64,000 bases of DNA from Aureimonas flava. GTDB lineage: Bacteria > Pseudomonadota > Alphaproteobacteria > Rhizobiales > Rhizobiaceae. How positions within the stretch are numbered: the stretch's first letter is position 1; each line of letters begins with the position of its first letter. The notes below the pieces were generated by a model. That model made no database searches, was not told where the DNA came from, and saw nothing but the letters and a program-made list of their open reading frames with translations. Of this stretch, positions 505 to 19,028 are shown piece by piece. The position numbers and the translations under genes are program-made. The DNA is taken from assembly GCF_003583935.1 (NCBI RefSeq), contig NZ_QYRN01000001.1, positions 62,001-126,000 of the forward strand, in the 5' to 3' direction.

Positions 505-765
505 ATGGCTCTCAATCTCAAGGCGATGTCGCGCTTCGCGACCAGCGATCGCGGCTCCACCAAGCAGGCCAACTGGTACGTCTATTCGACGCCGGACGCG
601 GCGGCGACCGTTTCCGCGGCCGGGTACTGGAACGGCGCGGCCGTGCCCCAGAACCTCAAGAAGGGCGACCGCATCGCCTGTTCCGTCAACGTGGACGCGA
701 CGCCCGCGATGCTCAACCTGATCGTGACCGACGTCGCCAACGGCGTCGTCACGGTCGCGAGCTAA
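505..765 (+). CDS. Small virion protein sharing a module with the spike at 16719
   Basis: An 86-residue protein preceded by AGAGG, between the capsid and tail-tube genes. No signal peptide or membrane segment. Its N-terminal half carries SRFATSDR (about residues 9-16) and YVYSTPD (about 25-31), then GD at about 55 and a D-x-TPA motif near 64. The same motifs in the same order and spacing open the 769-residue protein at 16719-19028. A small protein directly after the capsid gene is often a decoration or head-fibre protein, but this could also be a tail-attachment adaptor. Function is inferred from position only. Confidence 0.75.
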   Translation: MALNLKAMSRFATSDRGSTKQANWYVYSTPDAAATVSAAGYWNGAAVPQNLKKGDRIACSVNVDATPAMLNLIVTDVANGVVTVAS

Positions 766-774
766 GGGGCCGTC

Positions 775-1398
775 ATGTCCCAGCCGATCGACAAGGCGAC
801 GATCGTCAACCGGGCCCTCGGCCGGCTGGGGCAGGCGCCCGTGTTCTCGCTCGACGGCGAGAACCACGTGACCGGCCATGTCGACGGCGTGTGGGACGAC
901 GTCGTGGCGGAATGCTTCGGCCTCCACGACTGGAGCTTCTGCCGGCGCACCACGAAGTTGACGCGCCTCGCCGTCGAGCCGGGGAACGGTTGGTCCTACG
1001 GCTTCGCGCTGCCCGGCGACCGGATCGGGGAGCCGCTGCTGGTTCTGGCGGCCGTCGCTCCCGCGGAGCATGTCCTGCGCGACTTCTCGATCGAGGCCGG
1101 CGTCCTTTATGCACGCGCCGCGAACGTCTGGGCGCGGTGCAAGGTCGCCGTGGATCCGGAAGCCTGGGACATCGGCTTCCGGGGCGCGTTCGTCACGGCG
1201 CTCGCTTCGGCGCTGGCCGTGCCGATGCAATCGGATCAGGGCTTGCAGGACGATCTGCGGGCGCAGGCCTTCGGCACACCGTCGCAGGGCGGCACGGGCG
1301 GCCAGTTCGGCCGCCTCGTCGCGCAGAACCGCGCGGGATCGCCCGTCGGCTCCCCCTTCCTGCGGGGCGACCCGCTCACCGATGCGCGGTGGGGCTGA
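775..1398 (+). CDS. Tail tubular protein A-like / head-tail connector
   Basis: A 207-residue protein with AAGGGG upstream of the ATG. It opens with a small helical stretch containing NRALGRLGQ, followed by a W/F-rich segment (about residues 45-75), a pattern seen in gp11-like tail tubular proteins that bridge portal and nozzle in short-tailed phages. Size is close to T7 gp11 (196 residues). Its TGA shares one base with the ATG of the next gene (TGATG), so the two are likely translationally coupled. The family call rests on pattern and order. Confidence 0.65.
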   Translation: MSQPIDKATIVNRALGRLGQAPVFSLDGENHVTGHVDGVWDDVVAECFGLHDWSFCRRTTKLTRLAVEPGNGWSYGFALPGDRIGEPLLVLAAVAPAEHVLRDFSIEAGVLYARAANVWARCKVAVDPEAWDIGFRGAFVTALASALAVPMQSDQGLQDDLRAQAFGTPSQGGTGGQFGRLVAQNRAGSPVGSPFLRGDPLTDARWG

Positions 1399-3449
1399 TG
1401 GCGGGGCAGCCGGGACGCGGCCAGCAGAGCATGAACGCCGGCGAGTTCTCGCCGGAGCTCGCGGGCCGGATCGACATCAAGCAGTACTACTCGGCCGGGC
1501 TCCGCTTCCTGAACGTCGAGCCGGTGGCGCAGGCCGGGTTCCGCAATCTGCCCGGCACACGCCGGGTGGTTTCCACGGACACCCCCTGGCGCCCGCGCTT
1601 CTGGCGGCTACGCCATTCGCGTGAGCTGCATTTCCTGATCGCGGTCGTGCCCTATCGGATCGACGTGTTCGAGGGGACGGCGCTGGTGGCGCGGATCCCG
1701 ACCCCCGTCACGCCGGAGATCGCGGCCGAGGTGTCGCTGTACCTGGAGGCGGACACGGTCGGGGTGTTCCACCGCGATCTGCGCCCGCTGCGCCTGGTGC
1801 GCCAGAGCAACGGGTCCTGGACGCTGGGTTTCTGGCCGTTCGGCAAGATCCCCGACCAGGACTACGGCGGCGACTATGCGAAGCGGGAAGACATCTGGGA
1901 GCTGTTCGTCCGCTTCGACGGCACAGCAGCTTCCTCCAACCCGATCATCGCGATCAGCGTGGACGGAGAGGCGATCGAGGCCCAGCAGCTTTCCGGTACC
2001 GACTACAACGCCTGGGCGGCCGCGATCCAGGACCAGCTTCGCGCCCTGCCGTCGCTGAACGGAGACGTCGTCTGTGCCGCCGGCCCGGTGGGCAACGGCG
2101 TCAACGCAGTCCGGCTGCGCATCGTCTTCGGTGGAAGCCTTGCGGGCCAGGAATTCCAGATCACCTCGCAGATCGTGAGCACGAGCTCGGTCTCCGTGCT
2201 GCCGTCGCATATCCAGATCGGCAAGACGTTCGGCGAGCCGCTGATCTCGGATGCGCGCGGCTGGCCCGGGGTGGTCGCGATCGCGCAGGACCGTCTGGTG
2301 TATGCCGCCCTCCGCGAGCGGCCCTCGGCGCTGCTGTTCTCGCAGACGGCGGAGTATTTCACGGTGAACACGTCGGCCCAGCGCGCGGACGGGGCCAAGC
2401 TCGAGGCGCTGCGCACGACCAGCAAGGAAGAGATCCTGCATGTGAAGGCGCTGCAATACCTGCTCGTCTTCACGGACGAGGCGGAATATTTCGCGACCAA
2501 CCGGACGATCGCCCGAACGGAGCCGCTGAACTTCGTGGAGACCAGCCGGAACGGCATGGCGCGGGGGACCTGGCCGGTCGAGATCGAGAACCGGGTCTAC
2601 TACATCGGCCAGCGCGGCGCGGTCCTGTTCTCGACCGCCTACGACGACATCCAGTCGGCGTTCACCGCTCGGCAGGAAAGCCTTCTCGCATCGCATCTCG
2701 TGGACGACGTGATCGAGACGGCGATCCAGCGCGGCACGGACGACAGCGACAGCCCCCGGCTTTGGATGCTGCGGCGGGACGGTCGCCTCGTCGGCGCGAG
2801 CATCATTCGCGACCAGGAGATCACCGCGTTCTTCGAATACGACGTGGGCGCGCCGGTCCGCTCGATCGGCATCGACGCCGAGAACCGGCTGTGGCTGGCG
2901 GTGGACCGGTCCGACGGCCAGCAATACGAGGTGATGGACGACGGGTCGTTCCTCGCCTCGGGGGTGACGCGGACGGTCGCAGACGACGGCACGGTGTCCG
3001 ACCTCCCCTTCGCCGAGGGCAGCGAGGTCTGGGCGGAAGCGGGGGGCTACACCTACGGCCCCGCGACGGTGACCGGCGGTGCGGCGCGTATCGGCGCGCC
3101 GGGGGAGGCCGCGCGGATCGGCATCTGGCGTCCGCCGCTCTGGGAAAGCATGCCGAGCGTGCTCGTCGGGCGCGACGACAAGATCGTCCGGCGCCCCGGC
3201 CGGATCCACGGGTTGGACGTGAACGTGATCGAGACGACGTCGATCGCGATCGGCGCGAACGGCACGACGCCGCGCGATCTGCCCCTGGTGCGCCTGTCGG
3301 ACCCCGCGGATCTTCCACCGGTTCCCAAGACCGAGCTGGTGACGATGGCCGGCATCCCCGGCGTCGTCACCGATCCCACGGCCGTCGTCACGCAGGTTCG
3401 CCCCGGCGTGCTGCGCGTGCGCGACGTCACCTTCCAGGAGAAGCTGTAA
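1398..3449 (+). CDS. Large tail hub / nozzle protein (tail tubular protein B-like)
   Basis: A 683-residue protein. The N-terminal motif NAGEFSPELAGRIDIKQYYSA, found near the start of many virion structural proteins of this class, is at about residues 11-31. The body is beta-rich with repeated hydrophobic strands and no membrane segment. It follows the gp11-like gene with one-base overlap and precedes the small core-protein gene with another (TAATG), the place of T7 gene 12, whose product forms the tail nozzle. Extra in-frame sequence upstream of the ATG is a shadow of the 775-1398 gene. Confidence 0.7.
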   Translation: MAGQPGRGQQSMNAGEFSPELAGRIDIKQYYSAGLRFLNVEPVAQAGFRNLPGTRRVVSTDTPWRPRFWRLRHSRELHFLIAVVPYRIDVFEGTALVARIPTPVTPEIAAEVSLYLEADTVGVFHRDLRPLRLVRQSNGSWTLGFWPFGKIPDQDYGGDYAKREDIWELFVRFDGTAASSNPIIAISVDGEAIEAQQLSGTDYNAWAAAIQDQLRALPSLNGDVVCAAGPVGNGVNAVRLRIVFGGSLAGQEFQITSQIVSTSSVSVLPSHIQIGKTFGEPLISDARGWPGVVAIAQDRLVYAALRERPSALLFSQTAEYFTVNTSAQRADGAKLEALRTTSKEEILHVKALQYLLVFTDEAEYFATNRTIARTEPLNFVETSRNGMARGTWPVEIENRVYYIGQRGAVLFSTAYDDIQSAFTARQESLLASHLVDDVIETAIQRGTDDSDSPRLWMLRRDGRLVGASIIRDQEITAFFEYDVGAPVRSIGIDAENRLWLAVDRSDGQQYEVMDDGSFLASGVTRTVADDGTVSDLPFAEGSEVWAEAGGYTYGPATVTGGAARIGAPGEAARIGIWRPPLWESMPSVLVGRDDKIVRRPGRIHGLDVNVIETTSIAIGANGTTPRDLPLVRLSDPADLPPVPKTELVTMAGIPGVVTDPTAVVTQVRPGVLRVRDVTFQEKL

Positions 3450-3994
3450 TGGCCCCGATCGCGGCGGCGCTGACGCCCCTGTTCAGCGGAATTGGCAGCG
3501 CCGTGACCGGCATCACCGGTGCGCTCGGCGGCGCCGGCGCGATCGGCTCCACGATCGGCAGCATCCTCGCCGGCACCGCGACGTTGATGTCGGTCTCCGC
3601 GTCGAAAGGCGCGGCCGAGATCGAGGCCACCAACCTCGAGCTCCAGGCGAAGGACCAGGAGGCGCAGCGGGCCACGGAGACGCTGGCCGGGATCGAGCGA
3701 CGGACCTCGATCAAGCGCGAGATGATGACGGCGATCGGAGAGCAGTCCACCGCCTACGCCGCCTCGGGCGTGGACCTGTCGTTCGGCACGCCGTTGCAGG
3801 CGCGCGAGGAAGCCTTCCGCCAGGCGGATCTCGGCATGGAGACCGCGACCGGCACCGAACGCAGCCGGATCGCCCGTCTCGAGGAGAGGGCGTCGAACCT
3901 CCGGAGCCAGGCCACTTCGACGCGCCGTGCCGCGAAGGCGCAAGGGGCTGCGCAGATCCTCACCGGCGCGTCGCGCTTCCTGTCCCGGGGCTGA
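3449..3994 (+). CDS. Internal virion (core) protein, small, gp14-like position
   Basis: A 181-residue protein starting on the stop codon of the previous gene. Residues 1-50 are Gly/Ala/Ile-rich and hydrophobic and could insert in a membrane. Residues 53-175 are a long charged helix with coiled-coil character, containing the stretch ASGVDLSFGTP at about 107-117. In podoviruses a protein of this size at this place (T7 gp14) leaves the capsid with the DNA and forms the outer-membrane part of the ejection channel. The role is by analogy of size, hydrophobic start and order. Confidence 0.6.
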   Translation: MAPIAAALTPLFSGIGSAVTGITGALGGAGAIGSTIGSILAGTATLMSVSASKGAAEIEATNLELQAKDQEAQRATETLAGIERRTSIKREMMTAIGEQSTAYAASGVDLSFGTPLQAREEAFRQADLGMETATGTERSRIARLEERASNLRSQATSTRRAAKAQGAAQILTGASRFLSRG

Positions 3995-3997
3995 TCC

Positions 3998-6900
3998 ATG
4001 GCGAACAAGCGTATCGGCGAGGTTTCCTATCGTCCGCTCCAGGTCGCGCCCGTGCTTCAGGACGGACTGCTCGCCGTCGATCGACCGGACGGGGGGCCGG
4101 AGCGGCGGGTGGCGGAGGCCTTCGCGCGCATGGCGGCGCAGGCCGACGACGTGGCGGACCGGTTCGCGGCGGCAGAGGGGCAACAGGCGGGCCTGCGCGA
4201 CGCGCTGGCGAACGGGCCGCGTGCGTCGGCCATCTCCGGCGGGGTGACGACGAGCGTGGAGGGCGGCGGCGCGCCGCTGGGCTATACCGGGTCCGGCGGC
4301 GGCGTGTCGTCGCGCGTCTCGACCGGCGGCGGCGACCTCGACGCGCGCGGCCGATACATCTACGAGGGCCTGCGCAAGCGCAAGCTCGGCCATTTCGCCG
4401 CCGCCGCCGCCGTCGGTCACGCCCGCCAGGAGAGCTCGATCCAGGCGGCCGGGCCGGACGGCGACAAGGGCACGTCGTCGGGCCTTTGGCAGTGGCGCAA
4501 CGAACGTCGCTCGGCCTTGCAGGCCTTCGCGAAGCGGCCGGGGCAGAACGGCGACTGGCGCGACGTGGACACGCAGATGGACTTCTTCGTGCACGAGCTC
4601 GGCGGCCGTGAGCGTCTGGCAGGCCAGCGTCTGGCGGCGGCAACCAACATCGTCGATGCCACCGAGGCGCTGATGCACTTCGAGCGGCCGCAGCACTACA
4701 CAGTCCGCACGCCGCGTGCCGGGCATGGCTGGGACAACCGCCTGGCCCACGCGCGCTGGGCCGAGGCCTTCGGCGGCGGGGCCGGTGCGCCGGCGGCCGT
4801 GACGGCCCTCGCACCCACGCCGGCGCCGACGGGGGCGGCCGCCGCGATCGAGGCGGTGGCGCCGCTCGCGTCGGATGGGAAGCCCGCCGCCGGGACGAGC
4901 GCGATCGCGCCCGCCGACGTCGGCCCGCCGCGCGTGACGCGCGTCGTCGAGCCGATCGAGATCCAGCGCGCCGGCGGCGGGTTCCGCCCGACGGGCTCGA
5001 CCACCATTCGCGGCCGGGCCTACGATACGGCGGGCATGCGGACTTATCTCGAGCAGCTGGACAACACGATCGCGGCCGACACGGATGCGGTCTACCAGCG
5101 GTTCAAGGACGATCCGGTCGAGCTGGAGAAGGCGTTCGGTGCGCTCCGCACCGTCCACATGCAGGACCATGTGTTCCCGGAGGTCCAAGGCGATTACGAC
5201 GGCGCCTTCGGCCGCGTCACGCGCGGCTATCTCAACCAGTCGCGCCGCGACCAGGAAACGCGCGTCCTGCAACAGGACCGGGCGGATTTCCTGACCCGCA
5301 GCGGCGAGATGGAAACGGCATCGGCGCGTGCCGTGGAGGCCTTCGACCCCGGCAGCGACGACGCGGCCGCGGCGATCGCCCTGCGGCAGTCGGCGACGGA
5401 CGCCCACTACGACAGCGCCGTGGCGCGCGGGATCCTGGACGCCGACGACGCGGCGGCCGCCAAGATCGCCAGCCGGCGCAACACGGCCGTCGCCTTCTAC
5501 GCGCGTCAGGCCACGGTGCTGCCGAGCCCGCAGGACGTGCTGGCGCTGAAGGAAAAGATGCGGACCGACTTCGCGGCGGGCGGCATGGCGGGGCTGGACG
5601 CCGGCGGCTGGCAAGCGCTCGAGGCGTCACTCGATCGGACGGCAAGCCAGAAACAGCAGGGGCAACAGGAGGCCTCGCGCACCCTGAAGGCGCGGGGCGA
5701 CGCCCTGGCGGACAGCGTCGTGAGGGGGTTCGAGGTCGATGCCGGCGAGATGGGCCGGTTCATGCTCGACCGGAACACGACGCCCGAGGGGCCGCAGATC
5801 ATCGATCGCACGCTCGAGAAGATCAATGCCGCGCGGATCCTGCGCGACAAGCCTTTGCCGGAGGCCGAGCGCTACGTGCTCGGCCTCGAGCGCGACCCGG
5901 TGGCCGTCGCCGGCGGCACCGCGGACTATGCCCGCGCCGAGCTCGAGCGCATGCAGCGCGCGGCGGGCACGGACCCGGTGGGCCTCGCCGAGCGCAAGGG
6001 GCTGCTCCCGGCGGAGGAGGGCGGCCTCGTCGAAGCGTCCTCCGCGGACGATCTGGCGGGGCGAATGAAGCTGCGCGCGGAACGGGCAGAGATCGCGGCC
6101 CAACACTTCGGGGTTCAGCCGAAGTACCTGAAACCCGGTGAGGCGGCCCAGATCAAGGTTCTCGTGGATCAGGATCCCGACCGGGCGGCGCAGATCGCGG
6201 CCGGGATCGTCACGGGCGCCGGCGCCCGCGCGGGCCGGGTGCTGGCCGAGCTCGGCGAGGACGCGCCGGCGGTGGAACAGGCCGGGGTCATCCTTGCCGG
6301 CGGCGGCTCCGAGCGCGCGGCTCGCGACGTCATCGCCGGCTACGGCCGGGGTGCCGACGGGCAGAAGCTGCCGGAGGTCCTGAAGCAGACGGAACGGGAC
6401 AGCCTCGCGCGCGAGACGATCGGCGGCGCCTTCGCGGGGTCCCCCGCGGACGGGACGCGCACGTTGGCGGCGGCCGAGCGGATCGCGCGCGTTCGCGTGG
6501 CGGAGGCCGGGATCGATCCGAAGAGCGAAGCGGCCCGTGGTATCCTGGAGAAGGCGATCCACGAAGCCGCCGGCGGCCGGTTCGAAAGCGGCGTGCAATT
6601 CGGCGGGTTCGTCGCGATGCCCGTTCGGGACGGCTGGTTCGGTTCCTCCTTCGCCGGCAGCCGTCCCACGGTGTTCGTGTTGCCGAGCATCCGCGCCGAC
6701 CGCTTCGCCGATGTGATCGACGCGATCCGAGACACGGATCTCGCCTCGAGCGAAGAGCCGCGCGCACGGCTCGGCCGGCGGTACTGGTCGGCGCCGCCGG
6801 TTCGCGAGAACGGGAAGGCCTACACGGCGGCCGACCTCAAGGCGGCGGTGCCCGTGGCCGTCGGCGGCGGCTATCGCTTCGCCTTCGGCGATCCCGCGTC

Positions 6901-7006
6901 CGAGGATCCGCAGTGGGTGCGCGGTGCCGATGGGCGGCCCTTCGTATTGGCGATCGACACGATGCGCCCGATCCTCGAGCCTCGCGTGCCGGGGGCTTAC
7001 CGATGA
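3998..7006 (+). CDS. Internal virion protein with phage-tail-type lysozyme domain
   Basis: A 1002-residue protein. Residues 113-260 look like a phage-tail lysozyme domain: HARQESS with candidate catalytic Glu at 145, then SGLWQWRNER (161-170), a QMDFF segment (193-197) and ERP...T near 229. Cutting peptidoglycan during genome entry is the expected job, as for the transglycosylase of T7 gp16. The remaining 740 residues are Ala/Arg/Glu-rich helices without recognisable domains, probably part of an ejected core. The start at 3998 comes 3 bases after the previous stop. The stop overlaps the next ATG (ATGA). Confidence 0.8.
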   Translation: MANKRIGEVSYRPLQVAPVLQDGLLAVDRPDGGPERRVAEAFARMAAQADDVADRFAAAEGQQAGLRDALANGPRASAISGGVTTSVEGGGAPLGYTGSGGGVSSRVSTGGGDLDARGRYIYEGLRKRKLGHFAAAAAVGHARQESSIQAAGPDGDKGTSSGLWQWRNERRSALQAFAKRPGQNGDWRDVDTQMDFFVHELGGRERLAGQRLAAATNIVDATEALMHFERPQHYTVRTPRAGHGWDNRLAHARWAEAFGGGAGAPAAVTALAPTPAPTGAAAAIEAVAPLASDGKPAAGTSAIAPADVGPPRVTRVVEPIEIQRAGGGFRPTGSTTIRGRAYDTAGMRTYLEQLDNTIAADTDAVYQRFKDDPVELEKAFGALRTVHMQDHVFPEVQGDYDGAFGRVTRGYLNQSRRDQETRVLQQDRADFLTRSGEMETASARAVEAFDPGSDDAAAAIALRQSATDAHYDSAVARGILDADDAAAAKIASRRNTAVAFYARQATVLPSPQDVLALKEKMRTDFAAGGMAGLDAGGWQALEASLDRTASQKQQGQQEASRTLKARGDALADSVVRGFEVDAGEMGRFMLDRNTTPEGPQIIDRTLEKINAARILRDKPLPEAERYVLGLERDPVAVAGGTADYARAELERMQRAAGTDPVGLAERKGLLPAEEGGLVEASSADDLAGRMKLRAERAEIAAQHFGVQPKYLKPGEAAQIKVLVDQDPDRAAQIAAGIVTGAGARAGRVLAELGEDAPAVEQAGVILAGGGSERAARDVIAGYGRGADGQKLPEVLKQTERDSLARETIGGAFAGSPADGTRTLAAAERIARVRVAEAGIDPKSEAARGILEKAIHEAAGGRFESGVQFGGFVAMPVRDGWFGSSFAGSRPTVFVLPSIRADRFADVIDAIRDTDLASSEEPRARLGRRYWSAPPVRENGKAYTAADLKAAVPVAVGGGYRFAFGDPASEDPQWVRGADGRPFVLAIDTMRPILEPRVPGAYR

Positions 7007-10000: not shown

Positions 10001-10296
10001 GTGTTCGTCAAGTCCGAGGCTTCGACGGGGTATTCACCATGGAGGATCGGGCGCTCAGCGTCGACGATTTTGGCAAACCTATCACCATAACCTTTGACCG
10101 ATCCGGCACTCGCTGGGAGGTCGTGACGGCTCCTGTCGAGGAGGCACGGGTGGTCAGCAACCCGGATGTGTGGGACGTCGTGCCGGACGGCACCGACGCG
10201 GAGGGGCGAGCGCAGTTCGCGCGTCCCGCCGATCTCCTCGAGCGTGCCGGCCGGGACGACGATCTCGGCTTCCTCGTCGAACACTGCAAGGTCTGA
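7003..10296 (+). CDS. Ejected multidomain 'polyvalent' virion protein with ParB-like and toxin-nuclease-like domains
   Basis: A 1097-residue protein overlapping the previous gene by 4 bases. Residues 1-390 are helical with an Ala/Gly-rich hydrophobic middle (about 205-290). Residues about 420-540 resemble a ParB/sulfiredoxin-like domain (FIADGHQRLGLARRL around 472-486). Residues about 790-920 contain a GLAKIVAKHPEVL segment (856-868) and a V-x-L-DYDG...WLMTAYEK end, a layout I associate with phage Barnase-EndoU-ColicinE5/RelE-like nuclease domains. The last 155 residues are encoded by DNA visibly less GC-rich than its surroundings. Virion location is inferred from the operon; the domain calls are by eye. 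Confidence 0.65.
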   Translation: MSIFQHAPPDEAEGRRITFGDPAPVSLGALDYLPGVALVRQEANLVGDLIDGDRRASMAELYAANDEAQTFIDNTFAREDARREAYRRRIERIHAATGVQLQMPLDGTGSFAAVDRPVGSEWEERYGGDPIGRRNLEAFRRQLAELRGKFPQHAELFDSDFDGDTGGIVSAAEARRKAADAGAADLSGISRLASVFAGGGRGMLRDPVQIAALFLGGGAGTAKGVVGRIGQTILTEAAVNAGVEAAVQTRAQAWRAENGLESGIVPGLRQVGLAGLFGGTFGGLIAGGREVARAFRVTDAAEVAAIERVATGNPREGDLDQVAKRLGVRADAAETRVAAVADAQAALDDAAFGPTPAGLTDDEAAAMRNAAVRSAETDGPPAAGPVAKPRRDPAEHAVLSEALPGGAISVRGRPVGYERFDPETVGTDAVAYQYKGGGDDAGVTDRLRGVKRWDPTASGKVMIHERTDGARFIADGHQRLGLARRLKAEGDASVRLDGYLFREADGWTAEDVRALAAKKNMQEGSGEAIDAARVMRDRPDLLDDGLPMSGAMMRRASALARLSDDAWGMAINGVVDQNHAALIGELVPDPRMHAAAIRDLAEFSPETDRAARMLLEEIMASGVRHETQTDMFGAFDLSKSLIGERVKVMEAAQRVLRQDKRLFAMLGDRADVIEAAGNTLDAAGNATRAVTAETVEAIVDRMARTKGPVSDALTEAARRFAGGSNATREARLFIGDIQSAIEREGLPALLNPPEPQLAAARAAEPGTAEAEAMAGLFPDEPARRAPPSRVLDVEPIGQGPAGPIYPASAFDGSWTAAVDFLTTRQAGDIAGMLSHPDVGRIDVVWGGFDAATDNGLGLAKIVAKHPEVLDELPSILASMDVKTRSANRIVLESKVHKAVVRLDYDGEAKTWLMTAYEKDERGLRAKGTTGRPDGLQTDRSSASQAEPNIIADEVEGQPYGQGALSGEGNTDPLEARSADDSPKFIGRNADDEDIFETVKGVRQVRGFDGVFTMEDRALSVDDFGKPITITFDRSGTRWEVVTAPVEEARVVSNPDVWDVVPDGTDAEGRAQFARPADLLERAGRDDDLGFLVEHCKV

Positions 10297-10299
10297 ACC

Positions 10300-12885
10300 A
10301 TGCCCTTCATCGACTGCCTGAACAATGCGATCGAGGGCGGCGAGATCAGCCGCGACGAGGCGGATGCGCTGCTGCGCGACTTCGAGGGGAAGTTCGCGCA
10401 GAAGCGGTTGCAGCTGGGCGACGACGCGGCATCGCAGGCTGCCAAAGACGAACTCGCCCGCGAACTTCGCGCGCAGGCCATCGAGAAGCGTCGCCGAGCC
10501 GTGCTGATCGAACAGGCGCGGCTGCGCCTGAAGGACCGGATCCTCGGCTATCGCGACGAGAACGGGAAGCCGGACGTCTACGAGGCGGCGATCCAGACGC
10601 TTTCGCACTACGGCTATGCCGGCGCCGAGAGCGTGCGCGGGCGCGCCGATGCGATCATCTCCATGGCGCACGGCAAGCTCACGGACCTGATGAGCGCGAC
10701 GAGCCGCAGCCTCGTGACGGGGCGGCGAAAGGCGAGCGCCGGCCTCGTGCGCGACCTGGTGCGCGAGCTGCACGGCGAAGCCTCGGGCGACGCGACGGCG
10801 AAGGCCTTCGCCGGCGACCTGTCGAAACTGTTCGAGGATCTGCGCAACCGGTTCAACGCCGCCGGCGGCGCGATCGCGAAGCTCGACGGGTTCGGCCTGC
10901 CGCATTCGCACGATGGGCTGGCCGTGCGTCAGGCCGGTCGCGACGCCTGGAAGGCTGCGATCAAGCCGCGGCTCGATCCCGACCGCATGCGCCATCCGTT
11001 GACCGGGGAGCCTGTCGGCGTCGCCGGGCTGGACAAGGCGCTGGACCACGTCTTCGACAGCATCACGACATCCGGCTGGGCGCACCATGCGCCGCAGATG
11101 CGCGGCGTCGGCGCCGGATCGCTGGCGACGCAGCGCCAGGAGCACCGGTTCCTGGCGTTCCGGTCGGCCGACGACTGGATGGCCTACAATGCCGCCTTCG
11201 GCGACGGCGACCCGGTGCAGGCGATCTTCCGGCACATCAACGGCATGGCGAAGGACATCGGCGCCATGGAAGTGCTCGGGCCGAACCCGAACGCGATGGT
11301 GCAGTGGATGGTGCAGGGGGTCCGCTCGGAGATCGCCAAGGGCGACGTCGGGCGCGCTTCGATGGCGAAGCTCGCCGGCGGCGCGGCGCAGTGGGCGCGC
11401 GGAACGGAACCGGGGGCGTTCGCCGAGTGGCGTATCCAGTCGCTCTACGCCGAGCTGCGCGGCGGCGCGAACGCGGCCTCCGGCGTCGCGACGGCCGCGG
11501 CGACGGTGAAGAACCTGATGAACTCGGCGCTGCTCGGCGCCGCCGGCGTCACGGCGGCCGCCACGGATCCCTTCATCGCCCAGGCCGCGCGGCGCCTTGC
11601 GGGCCTGCCGGTGACGAAGGACTTGGGCGCGATGCTGCGGATGCTGAAGGCGTCGAACCGCGAGGAGATCCAGCGGGCGGGCGTGATCTGGGACGACTAT
11701 CTGCACGCCATGGAAGGCGAGGCGCGGTTCACCGGGCCGATGCTCGGACACAGCTGGTCGCAATACCTGGTCGACCGCTCGATGATGCTGAACGGCCTCA
11801 AGCCGTTGACCACGGGCCGCAAGCTCGTGGAGGCGCGTGCCTGGCAGGCCACCCTGGCCGATCATGCCGGCAGCGCGTTCGACGCCCTGCCGGAGCGGCT
11901 GCGCGTGACGATGGAGGGCTTCGGCATCGACGCGGCGGATTGGGAGATCATGCGCGCGAGCGTCGATCCCGGCGGCTTCGTCACGCCGATGTCGATCGCC
12001 AACGGCGGCGGCGAGGTCCGGTATCTGAAGGCCACCGCCGACGGCCCCCTGGTGGACGCGGATCTCGCGGCCGAAGCGAAGGCCCTGCGGCATCGCGAGG
12101 TGGCGGAGAAGCTGGCCGAGCTCACGGCGGCCTGGTCGGAACGGGCGACGCCCGGGGGCACGCCCAACGCGCGGTCCTTCGTCACCGGGCCGGTGGCGCG
12201 CGGCACGCCGATCGGCGAGTTCGCGAACTTCGCGCTCCAGTTCAAGAGCTTCGGCCTGTCCTTCACCACGCTCCAGCTTGAGGCGTTGCAGCGGATCACC
12301 GCGATGCAGACGGGCGGCAGGCAGGCGGCCGCCAGCTACATGGGCGCGATGCTGATCTCGCTGACCCTGGGCGGGGCCGTGGCGATGCAGATCAAGAGCC
12401 TGCTGGACGGCAAGGATCTCGAGGACATGACCTCGCCCGGCTTCTGGTTTCGCGCGACCATGCAGGGCGGCGGCTTCGGCCTGTTCGGGGATTTCGTCAA
12501 CGCCTCGTCGAACCGCTTCGGCGGCGGGGTGGCCGATACCGTGCTCGGGCCCGGCTGGAGCTTCCTGTCCGACACGGCCGGGCTGGTGGCGGGCCTGCCG
12601 ATCCAGGCGGCGACGGGGCAGACGGTCAATCCCGGCCGGGAGGCGATCACCTATGCCGGCCGGTACACGCCCGTCGTCGCCTCGAACTGGGCGACGCGCG
12701 GGGCGTTCCGACGGCTGTTCCTGGATCAGCTGCAATGGCTGATCGACCCGGAGGCGGACCGGAGCTTCAAGGCGCGCGCCCGCGGCCTGAAGGGGCGCAC
12801 CGGGCAGGACTACTGGTGGTCCCCGGGCGACACGGCGCCGAAGCGCGCGCCCGTCATGGCGACGGCGCCGGCGGAGCGCAATTAA
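10300..12885 (+). CDS. Large internal virion protein, C-terminal hydrophobic
   Basis: An 861-residue protein beginning 3 bases after the previous stop. The N-terminal 190 residues are charged and helical. Two hydrophobic stretches stand out: AAATVKNLMNSALLGAAGVTAAA near 396-418, and MGAMLISLTLGGAVAMQI near 682-699. The C-terminus is basic (about 830-861). As the last of four long or core-type proteins before the fibre gene, it likely belongs to the ejected core that carries DNA across the envelope, like T7 gp15/gp16. No catalytic motif was recognised. Confidence 0.6.
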   Translation: MPFIDCLNNAIEGGEISRDEADALLRDFEGKFAQKRLQLGDDAASQAAKDELARELRAQAIEKRRRAVLIEQARLRLKDRILGYRDENGKPDVYEAAIQTLSHYGYAGAESVRGRADAIISMAHGKLTDLMSATSRSLVTGRRKASAGLVRDLVRELHGEASGDATAKAFAGDLSKLFEDLRNRFNAAGGAIAKLDGFGLPHSHDGLAVRQAGRDAWKAAIKPRLDPDRMRHPLTGEPVGVAGLDKALDHVFDSITTSGWAHHAPQMRGVGAGSLATQRQEHRFLAFRSADDWMAYNAAFGDGDPVQAIFRHINGMAKDIGAMEVLGPNPNAMVQWMVQGVRSEIAKGDVGRASMAKLAGGAAQWARGTEPGAFAEWRIQSLYAELRGGANAASGVATAAATVKNLMNSALLGAAGVTAAATDPFIAQAARRLAGLPVTKDLGAMLRMLKASNREEIQRAGVIWDDYLHAMEGEARFTGPMLGHSWSQYLVDRSMMLNGLKPLTTGRKLVEARAWQATLADHAGSAFDALPERLRVTMEGFGIDAADWEIMRASVDPGGFVTPMSIANGGGEVRYLKATADGPLVDADLAAEAKALRHREVAEKLAELTAAWSERATPGGTPNARSFVTGPVARGTPIGEFANFALQFKSFGLSFTTLQLEALQRITAMQTGGRQAAASYMGAMLISLTLGGAVAMQIKSLLDGKDLEDMTSPGFWFRATMQGGGFGLFGDFVNASSNRFGGGVADTVLGPGWSFLSDTAGLVAGLPIQAATGQTVNPGREAITYAGRYTPVVASNWATRGAFRRLFLDQLQWLIDPEADRSFKARARGLKGRTGQDYWWSPGDTAPKRAPVMATAPAERN

Positions 12886-12935
12886 GCGGCTCGGCCGCAC
12901 GGCATTCTGGCGGGGTCGCAAACCCGGATCCCGCC

Positions 12936-14699
12936 ATGACCAATCCCTACCCGCTGCCGCGCGAGACGCGGGAATCGGCCCCCTTCGCCGGCGACGGCCG
13001 CGCCACCTACGGGCCCTTCGACTTCCGCATCTGGGACGTGGACGACGTGGTCGCCGAGGTCTCGCGCGGCTACGCGGAATACACGCTCGAGGCGGTGCGG
13101 GCGACCAAGGTCGCGAACCAGCCCTTCGACGATTTCTCCGTCACCTTCGACCCGCCGCTGGGGGGCGAGGACGTGGCGATCGTGAGCTCGCGGCGGCTCC
13201 AGGAGCGGCTCGGCGACGTGACGCGCGGCCAGTCGATCTCCTCCGCCGCGCTGGAGCGCGAGCTCTCGATCGTCGGGACCGTGCTCCAGGAACTGCGGCG
13301 CGACCTCGACAAGGGTGGAACCGGCAATGTCGGGGGCGGCGGCGGCGGGGTCATCACGATCGGCGACGTGGCGGGGCTTGCCGGCGTGCTCGCCACCAAG
13401 GCGAGCGTCACGGCGGTGCAGGCCCTTTCCGCCACCATCGCGACGATCGCGGCGCGCACCGTGCTCGGCGGCGGACTGGCGGCGGCCGCCACCGTCGGCG
13501 CCGTCACCACGATCTCCGTGGCGGCGGCGACGCAGGCCGAGGCCGAAGCCGGCCTCAACAACACGGCGGTGATGACGCCACTGCGCGTCGCCCAGGCGAT
13601 CGCCGCGATCGGCGGAGGGTCCGGCGGCACCGACCCGGCGGACGCGGCCATGGTCGCGCGCGTACCGGCGATCTTCGACAAGTCGAACGACATGACGCTC
13701 TCGAAGCTCTTCGCCCGCGAGGGTGTCGCCACGCTCGACGTGCGCGCGCAGAAGCTCGTCAGCACGCAGAGCCCGTGGAACTCGGACTATGCCGGGGGGA
13801 ACATCGCGTCGTTCCACGTCCGGCACGTCGCCGAGGGAACGGAGATGAACGGTCCGCGCGGTGCAGCCCTCGGCATCGGCATCTCGATGTTCAAGGAGGG
13901 GTTCGGTACCGGGACGGCGCGACCCGGCGAGATCGACGGCTTGTACATCGTCCTGCGCCAGGACAGCCCGCGCAACGCGAACAGCCAGACGTCGGCCGAC
14001 AAGGCGGACGGCTGCGGCGTTCTGATCGACGCCGCGGTGTTCGACAAGGTGGGCTTCGTCGGCGGGATCGAGGGCAACACCAGCGTCATCAACGACAACG
14101 GCATCGGCACCAAGCGGCGGCTCGTCTACCAGCTCGGCTGCACGGACACGGCGGTCGGCGGGGCGTCCATGGGCGTGTTCACCAGCGCCGCTCAGGGGCA
14201 GCACAACGCCGGCGTCATGGTCTACAACGCCGAGGCCGACGGCGGCTATTTCGACAACATGATCTACTGCGCGAACAATGCCGGGCAGATCTTCGGCGTC
14301 GACCGGCGCGGCCTCGTCTCCTTCGGCAAGCTGACCAATGCAGGGCAGCACATCAACCCGTCGATGCACATGACGCTGCAGGCGGACTATTCGCTCGGCT
14401 GGCTCAACGCCGCCAAGTCGGTCCAGATCCTGTCGCTCGACCAGAACGGCAATCTGAACGCCTACGGCAACCTGAACGGCGTGAGCGTCAACGCCACCGG
14501 CAACATGCAGGCGGCGGGAACCGTCATCGCCAATGCCGGTCTGCGGGCGCCCGACCTCGTCATGACGCCCGGTGCCCGCGACAGCACCAACCTGTCGACC
14601 TATCGGCGCGGCCAGCTCTTCGTCGGGCAAGGCGGACGCCTGCGCTACTGCGAGGCCGACGGCACGCAGCCGAAGTTCGTCTACACCACAAACTCCTGA
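12936..14699 (+). CDS. Tail fibre with T7 gp17-like N-terminal attachment domain
   Basis: A 587-residue protein. Residues about 20-125 carry the pattern of the T7-type fibre anchor: FDFRIWDVDDV, FSVTFDPPLGGEDVAIVSSR, then RLGDVTRGQSISSAALERE leading into a helix. A Gly/Ser-poor linker of Ala-rich repeats (about 130-225) includes AEAEAGLNNTAVMTPLRVAQAI, common in fibre shafts. The distal half (about 240-587) is beta-rich and should hold the receptor-binding tip. No endosialidase or chaperone motif was recognised. The ATG at 12936 is chosen because upstream in-frame sequence is a shadow of the previous gene. Confidence 0.75.
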   Translation: MTNPYPLPRETRESAPFAGDGRATYGPFDFRIWDVDDVVAEVSRGYAEYTLEAVRATKVANQPFDDFSVTFDPPLGGEDVAIVSSRRLQERLGDVTRGQSISSAALERELSIVGTVLQELRRDLDKGGTGNVGGGGGGVITIGDVAGLAGVLATKASVTAVQALSATIATIAARTVLGGGLAAAATVGAVTTISVAAATQAEAEAGLNNTAVMTPLRVAQAIAAIGGGSGGTDPADAAMVARVPAIFDKSNDMTLSKLFAREGVATLDVRAQKLVSTQSPWNSDYAGGNIASFHVRHVAEGTEMNGPRGAALGIGISMFKEGFGTGTARPGEIDGLYIVLRQDSPRNANSQTSADKADGCGVLIDAAVFDKVGFVGGIEGNTSVINDNGIGTKRRLVYQLGCTDTAVGGASMGVFTSAAQGQHNAGVMVYNAEADGGYFDNMIYCANNAGQIFGVDRRGLVSFGKLTNAGQHINPSMHMTLQADYSLGWLNAAKSVQILSLDQNGNLNAYGNLNGVSVNATGNMQAAGTVIANAGLRAPDLVMTPGARDSTNLSTYRRGQLFVGQGGRLRYCEADGTQPKFVYTTNS

Positions 14700-14708
14700 G
14701 GAGACTTC

Positions 14709-15071
14709 ATGAAACAGGATTTTCTGCGCCCGCTCGTCCAGTTCAACGGCGAGCCGATGTCCTTTCGCAAGGACGAGGCGGGCGTGCCCGTCGCCGCGAC
14801 GCTGGCGGACCTCGCCGTGGAGGCCCTGCTCTCGCAGCGGATGGACGGCGGCATGCCGCAGACCATGTCGGGCAACGACCACCTGACGGCGTACAAGCTG
14901 GCGGAACGGATCCACGACGCCGATGCGCCGATCGACGTGACGGTGGAGGAGGTCGCCCTGGTGAAGCGGCGCATCTCGGAGCACTTCGTCCAGCCGCTCG
15001 TGGTCGGGCAGGCGCTGATCATGCTCGAGGACAGCCTGGCAATTGAGAGCTCCGGCCCGCCCGTAATCTGA
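14709..15071 (+). CDS. Small phage protein of unknown function
   Basis: A 120-residue protein with a strong GAGGAG site before the ATG, between the fibre gene and the endolysin. It begins KQDFLRPLVQFNGEP and is acidic, with a helical C-terminal half. No signal peptide or membrane segment. Its place suggests a fibre chaperone, an adaptor or an accessory lysis protein, but nothing in the sequence decides. It is followed directly by a hairpin that includes the ribosome binding site of the endolysin. Confidence 0.6.
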   Translation: MKQDFLRPLVQFNGEPMSFRKDEAGVPVAATLADLAVEALLSQRMDGGMPQTMSGNDHLTAYKLAERIHDADAPIDVTVEEVALVKRRISEHFVQPLVVGQALIMLEDSLAIESSGPPVI

Positions 15072-15092
15072 CGGCTCCACCAACCGGAGCCG
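15072..15092 (+). promoter_or_regulatory. Hairpin occluding the endolysin ribosome binding site
   Basis: Perfect 7-bp stem, CGGCTCC (15072-15078) with GGAGCCG (15086-15092), loop ACCAACC. The 3' arm contains the GGAG that lies 8 bases before the endolysin ATG at 15098, so folding would hide the Shine-Dalgarno sequence. The hairpin starts right after the stop of the preceding gene, so ribosomes ending there could open it. Confidence 0.5.
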
Positions 15093-15097
15093 CCCGC

Positions 15098-15961
15098 ATG
15101 GTCGCCGCGAACTACGTTCCTTCCCTGGCTCGCGTCCTGGTGCACGAGGGCGGCTACGCCAACCATCCGAAGGACCCGGGCGGGGCGACCATGCGGGGCG
15201 TGACGCAGCGCGTCTACGACGCGTTCCGCGCGCGCGCGAAACTGCCGGCGCGGCCGGTGCGCCAGATCGGCAACGACGAACTCGAGGCGATCTACCGCGA
15301 CCAGTACGCCGAGGCGGTGCGCTTCGACGCGCTGCCGATCGGCCTCGACTACGTGCAGTTCGACGGGGCGGTCCACAGCGGCCCGTCGCAGGCCACCAAG
15401 TGGCTCCAGCGCGCGCTTCGCGAGCTCGGCCTCTATGCCGGCAAGATCGACGGGATCCCGGGCAACGGAACGTTGAACGGCGTGCGCCTGGTGAATGACG
15501 TGGACGCGCTGATCGCGCGCATCTGCGATATCCGCAAGGCCTTCCTGCGGGCGCTCAAGACCTATTCGACCTTCGGCAAGGGCTGGATGCGGCGCGTCGA
15601 CCAGGTGGGCGACGCCGGGCAGGACTGGGCGGACGGCTCGGTGCCGGCGGACCGGAACCTGACCTACGAGCCCGGCATGGAGCGCAAGGCGCTCGTCGCC
15701 GACGCCGCGCTTCCGGCCGCGCCGGTCAGCGCGCCGACGGTGGGTGCCGGCGGCGGCGGCATGGCCGTCGTCATCGAGGCGGCCCGCCAGCAGATCCAGC
15801 CCTTCGCCGGCGCCTCCAGCTTCATCGACAACGTGCTGGTCGGGCTGACCGTCGGCGGCGCGATCGTCGCGCTCGGCGGCGTCGCCTGGGGCCTCTGGGC
15901 GCAGGCGCGGCGGGCGCGCCTGGCGCGCGTGCTCGACCTCGAGACGCCGGTGCCGGCGTGA
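15098..15961 (+). CDS. Endolysin, GH108 N-acetylmuramidase with C-terminal membrane segment
   Basis: A 287-residue lysozyme that should cut the glycan strands of peptidoglycan. The GH108 motif HEGGY is at residues 16-20 with catalytic Glu17, followed by DPGGATMRGVTQ. Residues about 75-170 fit the partner peptidoglycan-binding domain (QFDGAVHSGPSQATKWLQRAL, then DGIPGNGT). A Pro/Gly linker leads to one hydrophobic segment (about 246-270) and a basic tail RARRARLARV-like, so the protein may be membrane-anchored, unlike soluble endolysins. The TGA overlaps the ATG of the i-spanin. Confidence 0.88.
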   Translation: MVAANYVPSLARVLVHEGGYANHPKDPGGATMRGVTQRVYDAFRARAKLPARPVRQIGNDELEAIYRDQYAEAVRFDALPIGLDYVQFDGAVHSGPSQATKWLQRALRELGLYAGKIDGIPGNGTLNGVRLVNDVDALIARICDIRKAFLRALKTYSTFGKGWMRRVDQVGDAGQDWADGSVPADRNLTYEPGMERKALVADAALPAAPVSAPTVGAGGGGMAVVIEAARQQIQPFAGASSFIDNVLVGLTVGGAIVALGGVAWGLWAQARRARLARVLDLETPVPA

Positions 15962-16230
15962 TGGGGCAGGTCCTCGTCGTCATCGCCGCCGCGCTCGGCC
16001 TGCTGCTCGGCGGGGCCGGCGGATATCAGCTCGGGTACATCTCCGGCCGCGTTTCCGGCCGGGCCGCCCTTCTCCAGGAACAGGCGCTCGCATCCGCTGC
16101 GGCCGAGCGCGAAAGGACGCAGGACGATGCGACGATCCGTGACCTGTCGGACGCTGACCTTTGCCGTCGCGCTCTTCGCGCTCGCGGGCTGCCGGTCGCA
16201 GCCTGCGACAAGCTGCACCGGGTTCCGTGA
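15961..16230 (+). CDS. Inner-membrane spanin subunit (Rz-like)
   Basis: An 89-residue protein starting one base before the end of the endolysin stop (TGATG). A GTG one codon earlier is a less likely start. Residues 1-22 form one membrane segment; the rest is a charged, probably coiled-coil periplasmic part. With the lipoprotein nested in its 3' end it forms a two-gene spanin that fuses inner and outer membranes at the last step of lysis. Family identity is by architecture, because spanins diverge strongly in sequence. Confidence 0.75.
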   Translation: MGQVLVVIAAALGLLLGGAGGYQLGYISGRVSGRAALLQEQALASAAAERERTQDDATIRDLSDADLCRRALRARGLPVAACDKLHRVP

Positions 16231-16339
16231 GGTGGCGCTTACGCCCGCCGGCACCGTGGCGCTGATCGGCGCGGACCGCGCGGCGGCCGAGCGGGCGATC
16301 GGCAACGACGCCAACGGCCGCCGGCTGGGGTGCTGGTAG
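16127..16339 (+). CDS. Outer-membrane spanin lipoprotein (Rz1-like), nested
   Basis: A 70-residue lipoprotein encoded in another frame and overlapping the Rz-like gene by 104 bases. MRRS start, hydrophobic stretch 10-20 and lipobox LAGC with lipidated Cys22 are clear. The mature part is about 48 residues with two further Cys residues. It should attach to the outer membrane and bind the i-spanin. Proline richness, typical of Rz1, is weak here. Confidence 0.75.
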   Translation: MRRSVTCRTLTFAVALFALAGCRSQPATSCTGFREVALTPAGTVALIGADRAAAERAIGNDANGRRLGCW

Positions 16340-16343
16340 GGCC

Positions 16344-16709
16344 ATGGCTGTCGACATCGACTGGTCCTTCCGCATCAGCGACATCATCCTGTTCGGCACC
16401 GCGGGCATCACCGTTCTCGTGACGTTCATCCGCGTCCAGACGGCGGTCGGCACGGCGCAGACGACGGCCGACGAGGCCGCCGATGCCGCCGCGGCCGCAA
16501 GCCGCCGCGCCGAGGACGTGTCCGCGCTGTGCGCGGCGAAGATCGACCTCCTGTCGCGCGAGATGGCCCAGCTCCGGGTCTACGTCGCCGAGAACTACAC
16601 CGCCCGCAAGGACATCACCGCGCTCGAGGAACGCCTGCTCGGCGCCGTCGAGCGCCTGACGGACCGCGTCGACCAACTGGTCGACCAACTGCTTGAACGT
16701 CGCCAGTAG
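16344..16709 (+). CDS. Phage membrane protein, candidate holin or antiholin
   Basis: A 121-residue protein 4 bases after the o-spanin stop. One hydrophobic segment (about residues 11-30) is followed by a long Ala/Glu/Arg helix that reads as a coiled coil up to the C-terminus (RLTDRVDQLVDQLLERR). A single-membrane-segment protein inside a lysis cassette that shows no other holin is a reasonable holin candidate. One segment with a coiled coil would also fit a structural or exclusion membrane protein. The hole-forming role is an inference. Confidence 0.55.
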   Translation: MAVDIDWSFRISDIILFGTAGITVLVTFIRVQTAVGTAQTTADEAADAAAAASRRAEDVSALCAAKIDLLSREMAQLRVYVAENYTARKDITALEERLLGAVERLTDRVDQLVDQLLERRQ

Positions 16710-16718
16710 GAGAACCCA

Positions 16719-19028
16719 ATGGCTTTCCAGACACGGGCCCTGTCCCGCTTCGCCACCAGCGACCGCGTCCGTCAGGGCAAGTCGAACCTCTACGTCTATT
16801 CGACCCCCGATAGCGCGACCGATGTCATGGCGCCGGACTACTTCAAGTCCGCGATCCGCCCCTTCGGCTTGGGCATCGGCGACGTCATGTTCTGCACCAC
16901 GGGAACGGACAACACGCCAGCGTTTCGTCAGCTGGTCATTACGGCCGCTAGCAAGACCGCGATTTCGCTCCTCGACGTCGTCAGCGGCGCGGTAGGCGGT
17001 GGCTCCTCCGGTACGGGTGGTGGGGTTCTTGGCCCGCTCACGGCATCCTTCGCCGCTGGCGCGCCGGCGGGAACCCTGGTAGCTGCCATCACCGGCTTGG
17101 CGCAGGACGAGACTATCGCCTCGATCACGCCGAACGATGGGAGGCTCGCGCTGGATGGCACCCGCAGGAACCTGCTCGTCGGCCTCAGTGCCTCAGCCGC
17201 CGGCACGATCGCTGCCACGCTCACGACCAGCATGGGCCGCGCGCTTGCGATCAATCTGACCGTCAGCGAAGCCATCCCCGTCGTCCTCGGCCTCGTCACC
17301 AAGACGGCCGACGGTTCGGTGGGGCAGACCTATACCGGCCCGGCCTGGTCGTCGCCGCAGTGGTATCGCGAGACGCTGGCGAGCCCGAAGACGCGCACCG
17401 CGATCGAGGGCGCGACCGCCCGGACCTACGTCGCCACCGCCGACGACGTCGGCTTCCGCCTCGTGATGGCCGGCACGGACGCCGGCATCGTGAAGGTCGC
17501 CGCGCCCTACGCCGTGGTGCTCGCGGCCCCGATCGTGCTTGAGAGCTTCGACAGCGTGGCGAGCCTCTCGGTGTCCACGGCGGGCAATCCGGCGCTCGCG
17601 GTGGACGCGGCCGACAAGGTGCAGGGCACCGGATCGGTGGTGGCGACCGGCCAGGGCTCCGGCAATCGCCTGATGCGCACCCTCGGCGCCCTGACCGGGA
17701 TCGCGGGCGTCGGCAACCTCGCCGGGCTCGGCACCCTTGCGTGGCTGCGGGAGGAGCTGAACCCCTACGCGTCCCTGGGCGGCGAGGGGTCGATCCGCGT
17801 GGACCAGACCACGGGCACGCCGGCTGTCGGTGGGCAGTTGAGCGGTGCGCAGTTTCTGAACGCCCACAAGGGCAAGGTCTGGAACAGCGTCCGGCCGGAT
17901 CAGCTCGCCTATCTCCAGGCGAAGGACCCGGCCGCCTCGTGGAAGGTGTCGTTCGACCGGTCGTCTTCCACGAGTGCGCCGCACGTCCAGCGCACGCGCT
18001 ATGACGCCTTGGTCGCCAAGGCCGGCTGTCGACCGACCCTGATCCTCGGCTTCGACGACGGCCTCAACATCGATGACGCCGTGGCCGAGATGGCGGCCCG
18101 CTCCATCGGCGCAACCCTCTACATCCCTTCGGAGGTCATCGACAATCGCTCGTCGTCCAGCATCCTGACCTGGGATGCGGTGAAGGCCTACCAGGCGCAG
18201 GGCATGGACATCCAGGCGGACGGCACGCCGGGCGACAGCAGCATGGTGACCGGCAAGGCGAACCCCGCCGAGACCATCGCGCTGCTGAAAGCGGGGCGAA
18301 CACGGATCATGGAGATGGTGCCGGGTTCCGACCCTCGCCATTTCTGCTACCCCAACGGCCACACGGACGCCTACGTGGCGAACAGCCCGAACCCGATCCC
18401 CGACCACCGCATCTACAAGGGCGGCGCGGCGACCGGCACCAGCGGCTCGGCGGTGCTCACCGGGCTCACCGACACGACCGGGCTGGCGGCGGGCATGGCG
18501 GCGGCGGGCTTCGGCGTGCCCGCCGGCACCCGGATCGCCTCCGTTGACAGCGCCACCCAGATCACCCTCACCAACGCACTGACGGCGGCCCTCACGACGG
18601 TCGCCGTCTGGGACGACAGCGGGCCGTTCTTCCTCGACAAGCTCCAGGACGCGATCCGAGCGGACGGGACGTTCCGCACCGGGCGCACCACCAACTTCGA
18701 CACGTTCCATTCGCGTTTCGGCATCGCCGGGCGGGACCTCCTGATGCCGGCCTACTCGATGTCGAACGGCTCGCTCGGAACCCTGACGCCGGAGCAGCTC
18801 GCCGATCAGGCTGTCGGACGTCTCGATGCAATGGTCTCCCGCAGGGAGAACGCAGAGTTCTACCTCCACGCCGTAAAGGAGAACGGTCGCCAGACCCTCG
18901 ACACGCCGCTCTCCACGTTCAAGACGTTCCTGGACGCCGTCGTGTCGCGGCGCGACGCGGGCTCGCTCGACGTCCTCACCAAGGCGCAGTGGTGGGCGCG
19001 CGACGGCGGGGCAAGCTGCCCGGTCTGA
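16719..19028 (+). CDS. Spike-like virion protein: capsid-linked N-module plus polysaccharide-deacetylase-like domain
   Basis: A 769-residue protein with GGAGAA before the ATG. Residues 1-90 repeat the motifs of the 86-residue protein at 505-765 (SRFATSDR, YVYSTPD, GD, D-x-TPA). A Gly/Ser linker (about 92-105) and Ig-like or beta-rich repeats follow (about 105-290). Residues about 435-560 resemble NodB-type polysaccharide deacetylases: FDDG at 445-448 (motif 1) and FCYPNGHTD near 545-553 (motif 3). The usual His pair of motif 2 is replaced by Asp501 and Asp506, so activity is uncertain. A beta-rich insert (about 570-635) precedes the end. Likely binds or trims surface polysaccharide of the host. 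Confidence 0.75.
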   Translation: MAFQTRALSRFATSDRVRQGKSNLYVYSTPDSATDVMAPDYFKSAIRPFGLGIGDVMFCTTGTDNTPAFRQLVITAASKTAISLLDVVSGAVGGGSSGTGGGVLGPLTASFAAGAPAGTLVAAITGLAQDETIASITPNDGRLALDGTRRNLLVGLSASAAGTIAATLTTSMGRALAINLTVSEAIPVVLGLVTKTADGSVGQTYTGPAWSSPQWYRETLASPKTRTAIEGATARTYVATADDVGFRLVMAGTDAGIVKVAAPYAVVLAAPIVLESFDSVASLSVSTAGNPALAVDAADKVQGTGSVVATGQGSGNRLMRTLGALTGIAGVGNLAGLGTLAWLREELNPYASLGGEGSIRVDQTTGTPAVGGQLSGAQFLNAHKGKVWNSVRPDQLAYLQAKDPAASWKVSFDRSSSTSAPHVQRTRYDALVAKAGCRPTLILGFDDGLNIDDAVAEMAARSIGATLYIPSEVIDNRSSSSILTWDAVKAYQAQGMDIQADGTPGDSSMVTGKANPAETIALLKAGRTRIMEMVPGSDPRHFCYPNGHTDAYVANSPNPIPDHRIYKGGAATGTSGSAVLTGLTDTTGLAAGMAAAGFGVPAGTRIASVDSATQITLTNALTAALTTVAVWDDSGPFFLDKLQDAIRADGTFRTGRTTNFDTFHSRFGIAGRDLLMPAYSMSNGSLGTLTPEQLADQAVGRLDAMVSRRENAEFYLHAVKENGRQTLDTPLSTFKTFLDAVVSRRDAGSLDVLTKAQWWARDGGASCPV

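Follow-up and report, generated by a model that had tools for sequence, protein, structure and literature searches.

A short, probably capsid-decorating protein and a long spike share an N-terminal module in a podovirus-type prophage of Aureimonas flava

Results

A single module shared by a short and a long protein

The 64-kb window analyzed here (Aureimonas flava contig NZ_QYRN01000001.1, positions 62,001 to 126,000) holds the final part of a podovirus-type prophage. Two of its open reading frames, both confirmed, are the subject of this work: one at 505-765, close behind the major capsid protein gene, encoding a protein of 86 residues (the short form), and one at 16719-19028, encoding a 769-residue spike (the long form). 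The two share an N-terminal module, which in the short form very probably decorates the capsid and in the spike would serve as an anchor. All features discussed are collected in Table 1.

The first-pass annotation of the window had proposed that the two proteins carry one module, with four motifs in the same order and spacing, and the comparison bore this out. BLASTP aligned the two from residue 1 of each without gaps (35 of 75 residues identical, 47%; 45 of 75 similar), with an E value of 3e-20 in this single pairwise comparison, and the motifs SRFATSDR, YVYSTPD, GD and D-x-TPA start at identical residue numbers in both proteins (9, 25, 54 and 64, respectively). The Smith-Waterman score of the short form against the spike module was 167, the maximum across 1000 shuffles of the short protein being 69. 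When profiles were searched, as had been suggested, both proteins matched phrog_18004, a family of unknown function (E values in Table 1); Pfam and NCBIfam gave nothing for the short protein. Unrelated folds had been named as an objection to a common module, and the order of strands was predicted alike in both: 8-15, 21-28, 56-61, 68-78 and 81-85 in the short form, and 8-17, 20-28, 56-61, 68-77 and 82-87 in spike residues 1-88, for which short-form rows were included in the prediction.

At the DNA level, 72 bases could be aligned between the two module genes (75%). Since the similarity is confined to this stretch, an old duplication is suggested as the origin of the pair. A comparison of the short protein with the whole genome of the window at E ≤ 1 yielded three matches, namely, itself, the spike and a protein at E 0.007 that reads by eye as a flagellin and was dropped. 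On these alignments, the predicted anchor of the spike is a paralogue of the short form.

The short form as a probable decoration protein of the capsid

The short form was modeled with AlphaFold2 from 46 sequences, with high confidence. Foldseek searches of the PDB with this model returned one match at E ≤ 0.001, chain H of entry 9eg4 (probability, 1.00), which according to the entry title is 'orf16' of the icosahedral capsid of the LME-1 phage. The same chain was reached by sequence with the family profile (E 4.5e-5), and a profile of 24 neighboring capsid proteins reached chain A of the entry (4.6e-60), where phmmer with one capsid protein had found no phage structure. The capsid protein and the module protein are represented in 9eg4 by 7 chains each, which suggests one module protein per capsid protein. 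The sequence of chain H has 269 residues, of which the structure library holds 89; thus, the module is probably the resolved, capsid-bound part of that chain, and the remainder flexible.

Relatives were gathered from virus contigs and bacterial genomes, the loci being picked by the module and not by their neighbors. A major capsid protein gene directly precedes 54 of the 64 distinct frames with a module, its end lying -450 to +200 bases from the called start (the median gap being 27.5 bases); in 52 of the 64, a tail tubular A gene also lay within 6 kb downstream. Frames were collapsed only where their ends were identical, the near-copies L062/L063 and L070/L076 being counted twice, and starts were called mechanically, so that some frame lengths are over-extended. 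The ten exceptions to the position behind the capsid gene comprise two long forms far from it (in the window and in L018), six cases of a second copy next to a first (L044, L070, L075, L076, L078 and L081), L077, with a gap of 509 bases after the capsid gene, and L035, a 5-kb contig without a capsid hit.

Judged by its homology to a protein of a matching solved capsid, in both sequence and fold, and by synteny, the short form very probably serves to decorate the capsid, one of two roles considered in the first-pass annotation. The other role, that of a tail adaptor, is disfavored, as a separate tail tubular A gene follows and the sole significant PDB match is a capsid chain.

Two further candidates were rejected. 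Bbp16 is a cement protein in BPP-1-like phages. Homology to this type of protein, whose gene has the same position, was not supported, since BcepC6B gp09 (annotated as similar to Bbp16) belongs to phrog_427 and the BcepC6B capsid protein to phrog_212. PDB hits of the first profile to 'Tako8' were summed repeat matches of ~4 bits each and were not among the matches listed with the larger alignment.

The module family is widespread. All 46 rows of the family alignment matched phrog_18004 at E ≤ 0.01, and the module was matched at E ≤ 0.001 in 69 of the 385 genomes sampled from the class. Matches were also found in 25 of 394 genomes of the family, including G340, which was discarded as chance together with L006; none of 14 control genomes searched with phrog_18004 had a match. 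In tblastn searches of 50,697 phage records, the short protein reached a best E of only 3. Two of four relatives used in the same way remained without a match; L067 matched an unannotated record at 2e-5 and, at 0.05, Dunaliella viridis virus SI2 and a short gene of Pelagibacter phage Hodr, and L069 matched the short gene of Hodr at 0.7. BFVD yielded 8 matches at E ≤ 0.001, none of them informatively named.

A short and a longer form of the module stand side by side after the capsid gene in L044, L070, L075, L076 and L081, with a weak further case in L078. The longer proteins have 197 to 223 residues (194 in L044, up to the contig end), and L070 and L076 are near-copies (97% and 93%). These pairs are possibly local duplications that yielded a second decoration protein with a C-terminal extension. 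Apparent long forms in G758 and G873 were rejected, the frames being short modules behind overlapping upstream frames. In L082 (10001-15304), ~4.8 kb separates the module gene (163 residues) from tail tubular A, the median elsewhere being ~40 bases.

The spike body with three N-termini in one genome

Two further copies of the spike body are present in the genome of the window. In the second (L158 4954-7050, in a second predicted prophage), another N-terminus of ~30 residues replaces the module. The third (L187 1498-3387), 63% identical, has bacterial genes as its neighbors (AMP-binding enzyme, DUF2927, methyladenine glycosylase) and opens with a twin-arginine (Tat)-like leader, read by eye from RRRLLLSLGAAAG. 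Thus, one deacetylase-like body occurs in one genome behind three N-termini: the decoration module, a short N-terminus of another type and a Tat-like leader. In the spike, the junction between module and body falls in a glycine-rich linker. Because the copies carry other N-termini elsewhere in the genome, the body looks like the part that travels, and the module like the part that ties it to this virion type. These domain swaps, together with the differing bodies behind the module in other lineages (see below), make it quite probable that the module is a virion anchor with an exchangeable body.

The first-pass annotation had also placed a carbohydrate-active domain on the long form. A weak polysaccharide deacetylase match was found, just under the Pfam cutoff, and PF01522 scored 21.1 bits on the 629-residue body copy. 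By eye, GFDD and FCYPNG are present in the spike body, and GMDIQADGTPGD occupies the position of the expected His motif. Deacetylases of the CE4/NodB type have a metal-binding His-x3-His motif. It was not seen by eye in any of the three body copies of the genome, and enzyme activity of the spike body is therefore uncertain; the region is perhaps one with an altered active site or a binding domain.

Recurrence of anchored long forms

Long proteins with an N-terminal module, encoded far from the capsid gene, were found in five prophage lineages (the window, G001/G209, G203, G458 and G334). In the window, G001, G203, G458 and G334, a short paralogue is also encoded next to the capsid gene. G001 and the virus record G209 encode an identical protein of 704 residues, G203 has two copies of 737 residues within one 54-kb record, G458 one form of 893 residues and G334 forms of 650 and 722 residues. 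The bodies differ. That of the window is deacetylase-like, that of G001 has fn3 and a further region without assignment, that of G203 has DUF2341 and a sub-threshold GH43 match, and that of G458 is pectate-lyase-like with S74; the bodies of G334 are largely unassigned, with a match to a virion-structural PHROG in one and weak matches in the other. In the C-terminal region of the G001 protein, GAND and NLVHP stretches recall SGNH hydrolases; Pfam, PDB and NCBIfam searches gave no confirmation of such a hydrolase.

A tree of 36 modules placed the G458 and G334 long forms together in a supported clade (99/97), whereas the grouping of the long forms from the window, G001 and G203 was less firm (88/81). 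The far long forms need two changes on this tree, and a single origin was seen in 14% of the bootstrap trees; the decoration protein may have been duplicated into an anchor more than once. Two tail ends, each with a T7-type fiber and a 737-residue module-bearing spike, are present in G203 (L143 and L144), and this record perhaps contains two related prophages in tandem.

Prophage context

Table 1. Features of the 64-kb window (coordinates in the window) and the evidence for them
Feature	Coordinates	Strand	Evidence
Major capsid protein gene, 3' part (start before window)	1..441	+	phrog_3437 major head protein 4.7e-12; PF19821 3.9e-9; family profile vs 9eg4_A 4.6e-60
Short form, 86 residues, predicted capsid decoration protein (module alone)	505..765	+	phrog_18004 1.1e-7; AlphaFold2 mean pLDDT 90.9; Foldseek 9eg4_H E 1e-4, TM 0.75; position after capsid gene in 54/64 module frames
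Tail tubular protein A-like, head-tail adaptor	775..1398	+	phrog_394 tail protein 4.5e-23; phrog_9239 tail tubular protein 3.5e-11
Tail tubular protein B-like, nozzle (start approximate)	1398..3449	+	phrog_376 tail protein 5.7e-77
Separate tail fiber, N terminus probably T7 gp17 (tail-binding) type	12936..14699	+	Profile of 10 N-termini: PDB tailspike 28lx_A 1.1e-6; PF03906 in 1/10 rows; tail fiber PHROGs in some rows
Long form, 769-residue spike	16719..19028	+	BLASTP to short form; phrog_18004 4.4e-4
Spike module (predicted anchor), residues 1-89	16719..16985	+	BLASTP; pLDDT block means 70-94 over residues 1-90
Gly/Ser-rich linker of spike, residues 90-102	16986..17024	+	DNA homology to second spike-body copy starts inside, at 17016
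Transferable spike body, residues 100-769	17016..19028	+	93% DNA identity over 2014 bases to module-less copy in other predicted prophage of same genome
Polysaccharide deacetylase (NodB/CE4)-like region, spike residues 437-555	18027..18383	+	PF01522 1.3e-4, 22.4 bits vs cutoff 23.1

The window is preceded by genes for ABC transporters and for a LacI-type regulator, and beyond them lies a remnant of the terminase large subunit (G000:C11:57654-57893; L029, L184). This remnant matches residues 441-520 of the 522-residue terminase large subunit of G001 with 81% identity, and no other match to the latter was found in the genome of the window at E ≤ 0.01. The G001 protein itself matches annotated phage terminases (terminase large subunit of BcepC6B, E 6e-48), and its frame is open in G001, which carries the same short/long pair. 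At the right end of the prophage, a tRNA-Thr gene (CGT) at 19153-19228 offers a possible attachment site. A repeat of the tRNA end was sought as the left site up to 12 kb upstream and in the part of the window that precedes the tRNA; none longer than 17 bases and none convincing was found.

The assignment of the separate tail fiber is based on the profile of 10 N-termini, the N-terminal row of the window fiber having matched no family by itself. The spike is not of the gp17 type at its N terminus, as the fiber profile scored 0.056 on it (0.7 bits) versus 7.1e-57 on the window fiber (the profile seed), and PF03906 was absent.

Head or tail

The following explanation is proposed. The 86-residue protein would bind the capsid lattice through its small beta fold. 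An old duplicate of it would have given rise to the anchor at the N terminus of a spike whose body is exchangeable and probably modifies polysaccharides. The spike, encoded at the distal end of the late gene block that also encodes the short form, would fill only a minor share of the decoration positions on the head and act from there on a host surface sugar, the T7-type fiber serving the tail. Enzyme action, copy number and mixing of the two forms in one lattice are predicted parts of this explanation. Display of the long form on the head is, in our judgment, the better reading by a modest degree of confidence. It is favored by the kinship of the module with a capsid chain and by the capsid-adjacent short paralogues of the window, G001, G203, G458 and G334. 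Since a separate T7-type fiber is present in the window, G001 and G203, the usual slot on the tail seems to be taken.

Several observations weigh against this reading. The model of the whole spike is poor outside the module (mean pLDDT, 44.8), and with this poor model Foldseek gave no match at E ≤ 0.001, 9eg4_H being absent from the best 50 listed; a profile of seven long-form modules had 9eg4_H as its best PDB hit, at only E 0.03, and the strand prediction for the spike module, as mentioned above, drew on short-form rows. Anchored spikes are also in the minority, with a far long form in 2 of 41 virus records that were searched over their full length (in many cases fragments) and in at least 3 of the 25 genomes of the family with a match (G000, G458 and G334). 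These counts are lower bounds; the genome search missed two of the three module copies in G334. Moreover, the prophage of the window is 5'-truncated and probably cryptic, its terminase large subunit being reduced to about the last 80 residues. Finally, in G458 and G334, the fiber N-terminal profile found no T7-type fiber in ~60 kb around the spikes, a search that did not systematically cover other receptor-binding genes, of which one may be present there, and the anchored spikes come directly after the last internal virion protein, the position of the fiber gene in the window. The S74 and pectate-lyase domains of G458 are usual in tailspikes, and the spikes of G458 and G334 may be the receptor-binding proteins of the tail itself.

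These last observations favor an explanation in which the short form decorates the capsid and the long-form module has been re-purposed for the tail or portal vertex, so that the spike would be an ordinary (second) tailspike. It would also account for the long-form modules grouping apart from the short forms, as expected if the binding site had changed. However, the module family shows similarity to a protein chain from a capsid structure, and the window, G001 and G203 own a separate T7-type fiber. In the scanned loci, moreover, the module profile matched capsid-adjacent genes and far long forms (plus L035/L036, contigs without a capsid hit), but no tail tube gene. We consider a place on the tail less likely than one on the head, but a serious alternative. 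The loss of most of the terminase, together with the related body that has a Tat-like leader beside bacterial genes, could also mean that the spike has no place in the virion and is instead a released enzyme or a decaying gene of a cryptic prophage; this is very improbable, as none of the 14 translated structural and lysis frames of the window has an internal stop, and a module-bearing long form has been kept in four other lineages, one of which (G001) has an open terminase frame. Several decoration proteins bind carbohydrates (PMC7602432), and the module could by analogy be a sugar- or surface-binding domain and not an anchor, aiding adhesion on the capsid and forming the carbohydrate-binding part of the spike. 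Its N-terminal position in every far long form seen, the different bodies that follow it and an icosahedral capsid chain as the sole significant PDB match make this the least probable of the explanations considered.

Discussion

The closest known counterpart of the system is the LME-1 capsid (9eg4, chains A and H), in which a homologous capsid protein occurs with a homologous module, N-terminal in a longer chain. The LME-1 entry differs in having one form, of 269 residues; the likeness is known solely from the entry title and the sequence and structure matches, and no publication on the 9eg4 structure was found.

Head-mounted binding proteins have precedents. The phi29 head fibers (gp8.5), T4 Hoc, T5 pb10 and N4 gp17 combine a capsid-binding with a projecting part and have proposed roles in host adhesion, gp8.5 being a trimer at quasi-3-fold sites; unlike the proteins studied here, they are not described, in the part of the source available, as short/long pairs or as bearing enzymes (PMC7602432). 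None of the four was among the Foldseek matches of the short form at E ≤ 0.001. In an alphaproteobacterial particle, the gene transfer agent of Rhodobacter capsulatus, the head spikes are capsid-mounted adhesins that attach it to the capsule of the recipient; the accessible text presents them as binders and describes neither an enzyme nor a domain shared with a capsid-wide decoration protein (PMC13420450).

Two other systems each share one aspect of the arrangement. The minor capsid protein of T3/T7-type phages likewise occurs as a short and an extended form of one lattice protein in one capsid; the extended form arises there by a frameshift of one gene, whereas here it has a separate paralogous gene with a large body (PMC13320782). 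Modular tailspike depolymerases likewise join a conserved N-terminal anchor to an exchangeable enzyme, but their anchor attaches to the tail, whereas here it is a relative of a capsid decoration protein (PMC8262889, PMC12692247). The first-pass annotation knew of no described system of such a build in this type of phage, and among the papers listed in the literature searches, mostly outside subscription journals, none is described as showing one; nor does any listed title or opening of an abstract report that a decoration protein and the anchor of a spike enzyme have a fold in common.

Taken together, the data allow a picture that we put forward tentatively, rating it slightly below an even chance: the head of an alphaproteobacterial podovirus would be a lattice in which bare decoration proteins are mixed with polysaccharide-modifying enzymes on decoration-type anchors, the anchor having been duplicated, apparently repeatedly, and the enzymes being swapped on the head as others swap tailspikes, in a natural form of capsid display.

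The analysis suggests a function for phrog_18004, a widespread family previously without one, and it suggests that in some podophages an anchor of the capsid type carries the receptor-modifying enzymes. If this is true, the line between decoration protein and tailspike would be blurred, and these phages would provide a natural example of capsid display.

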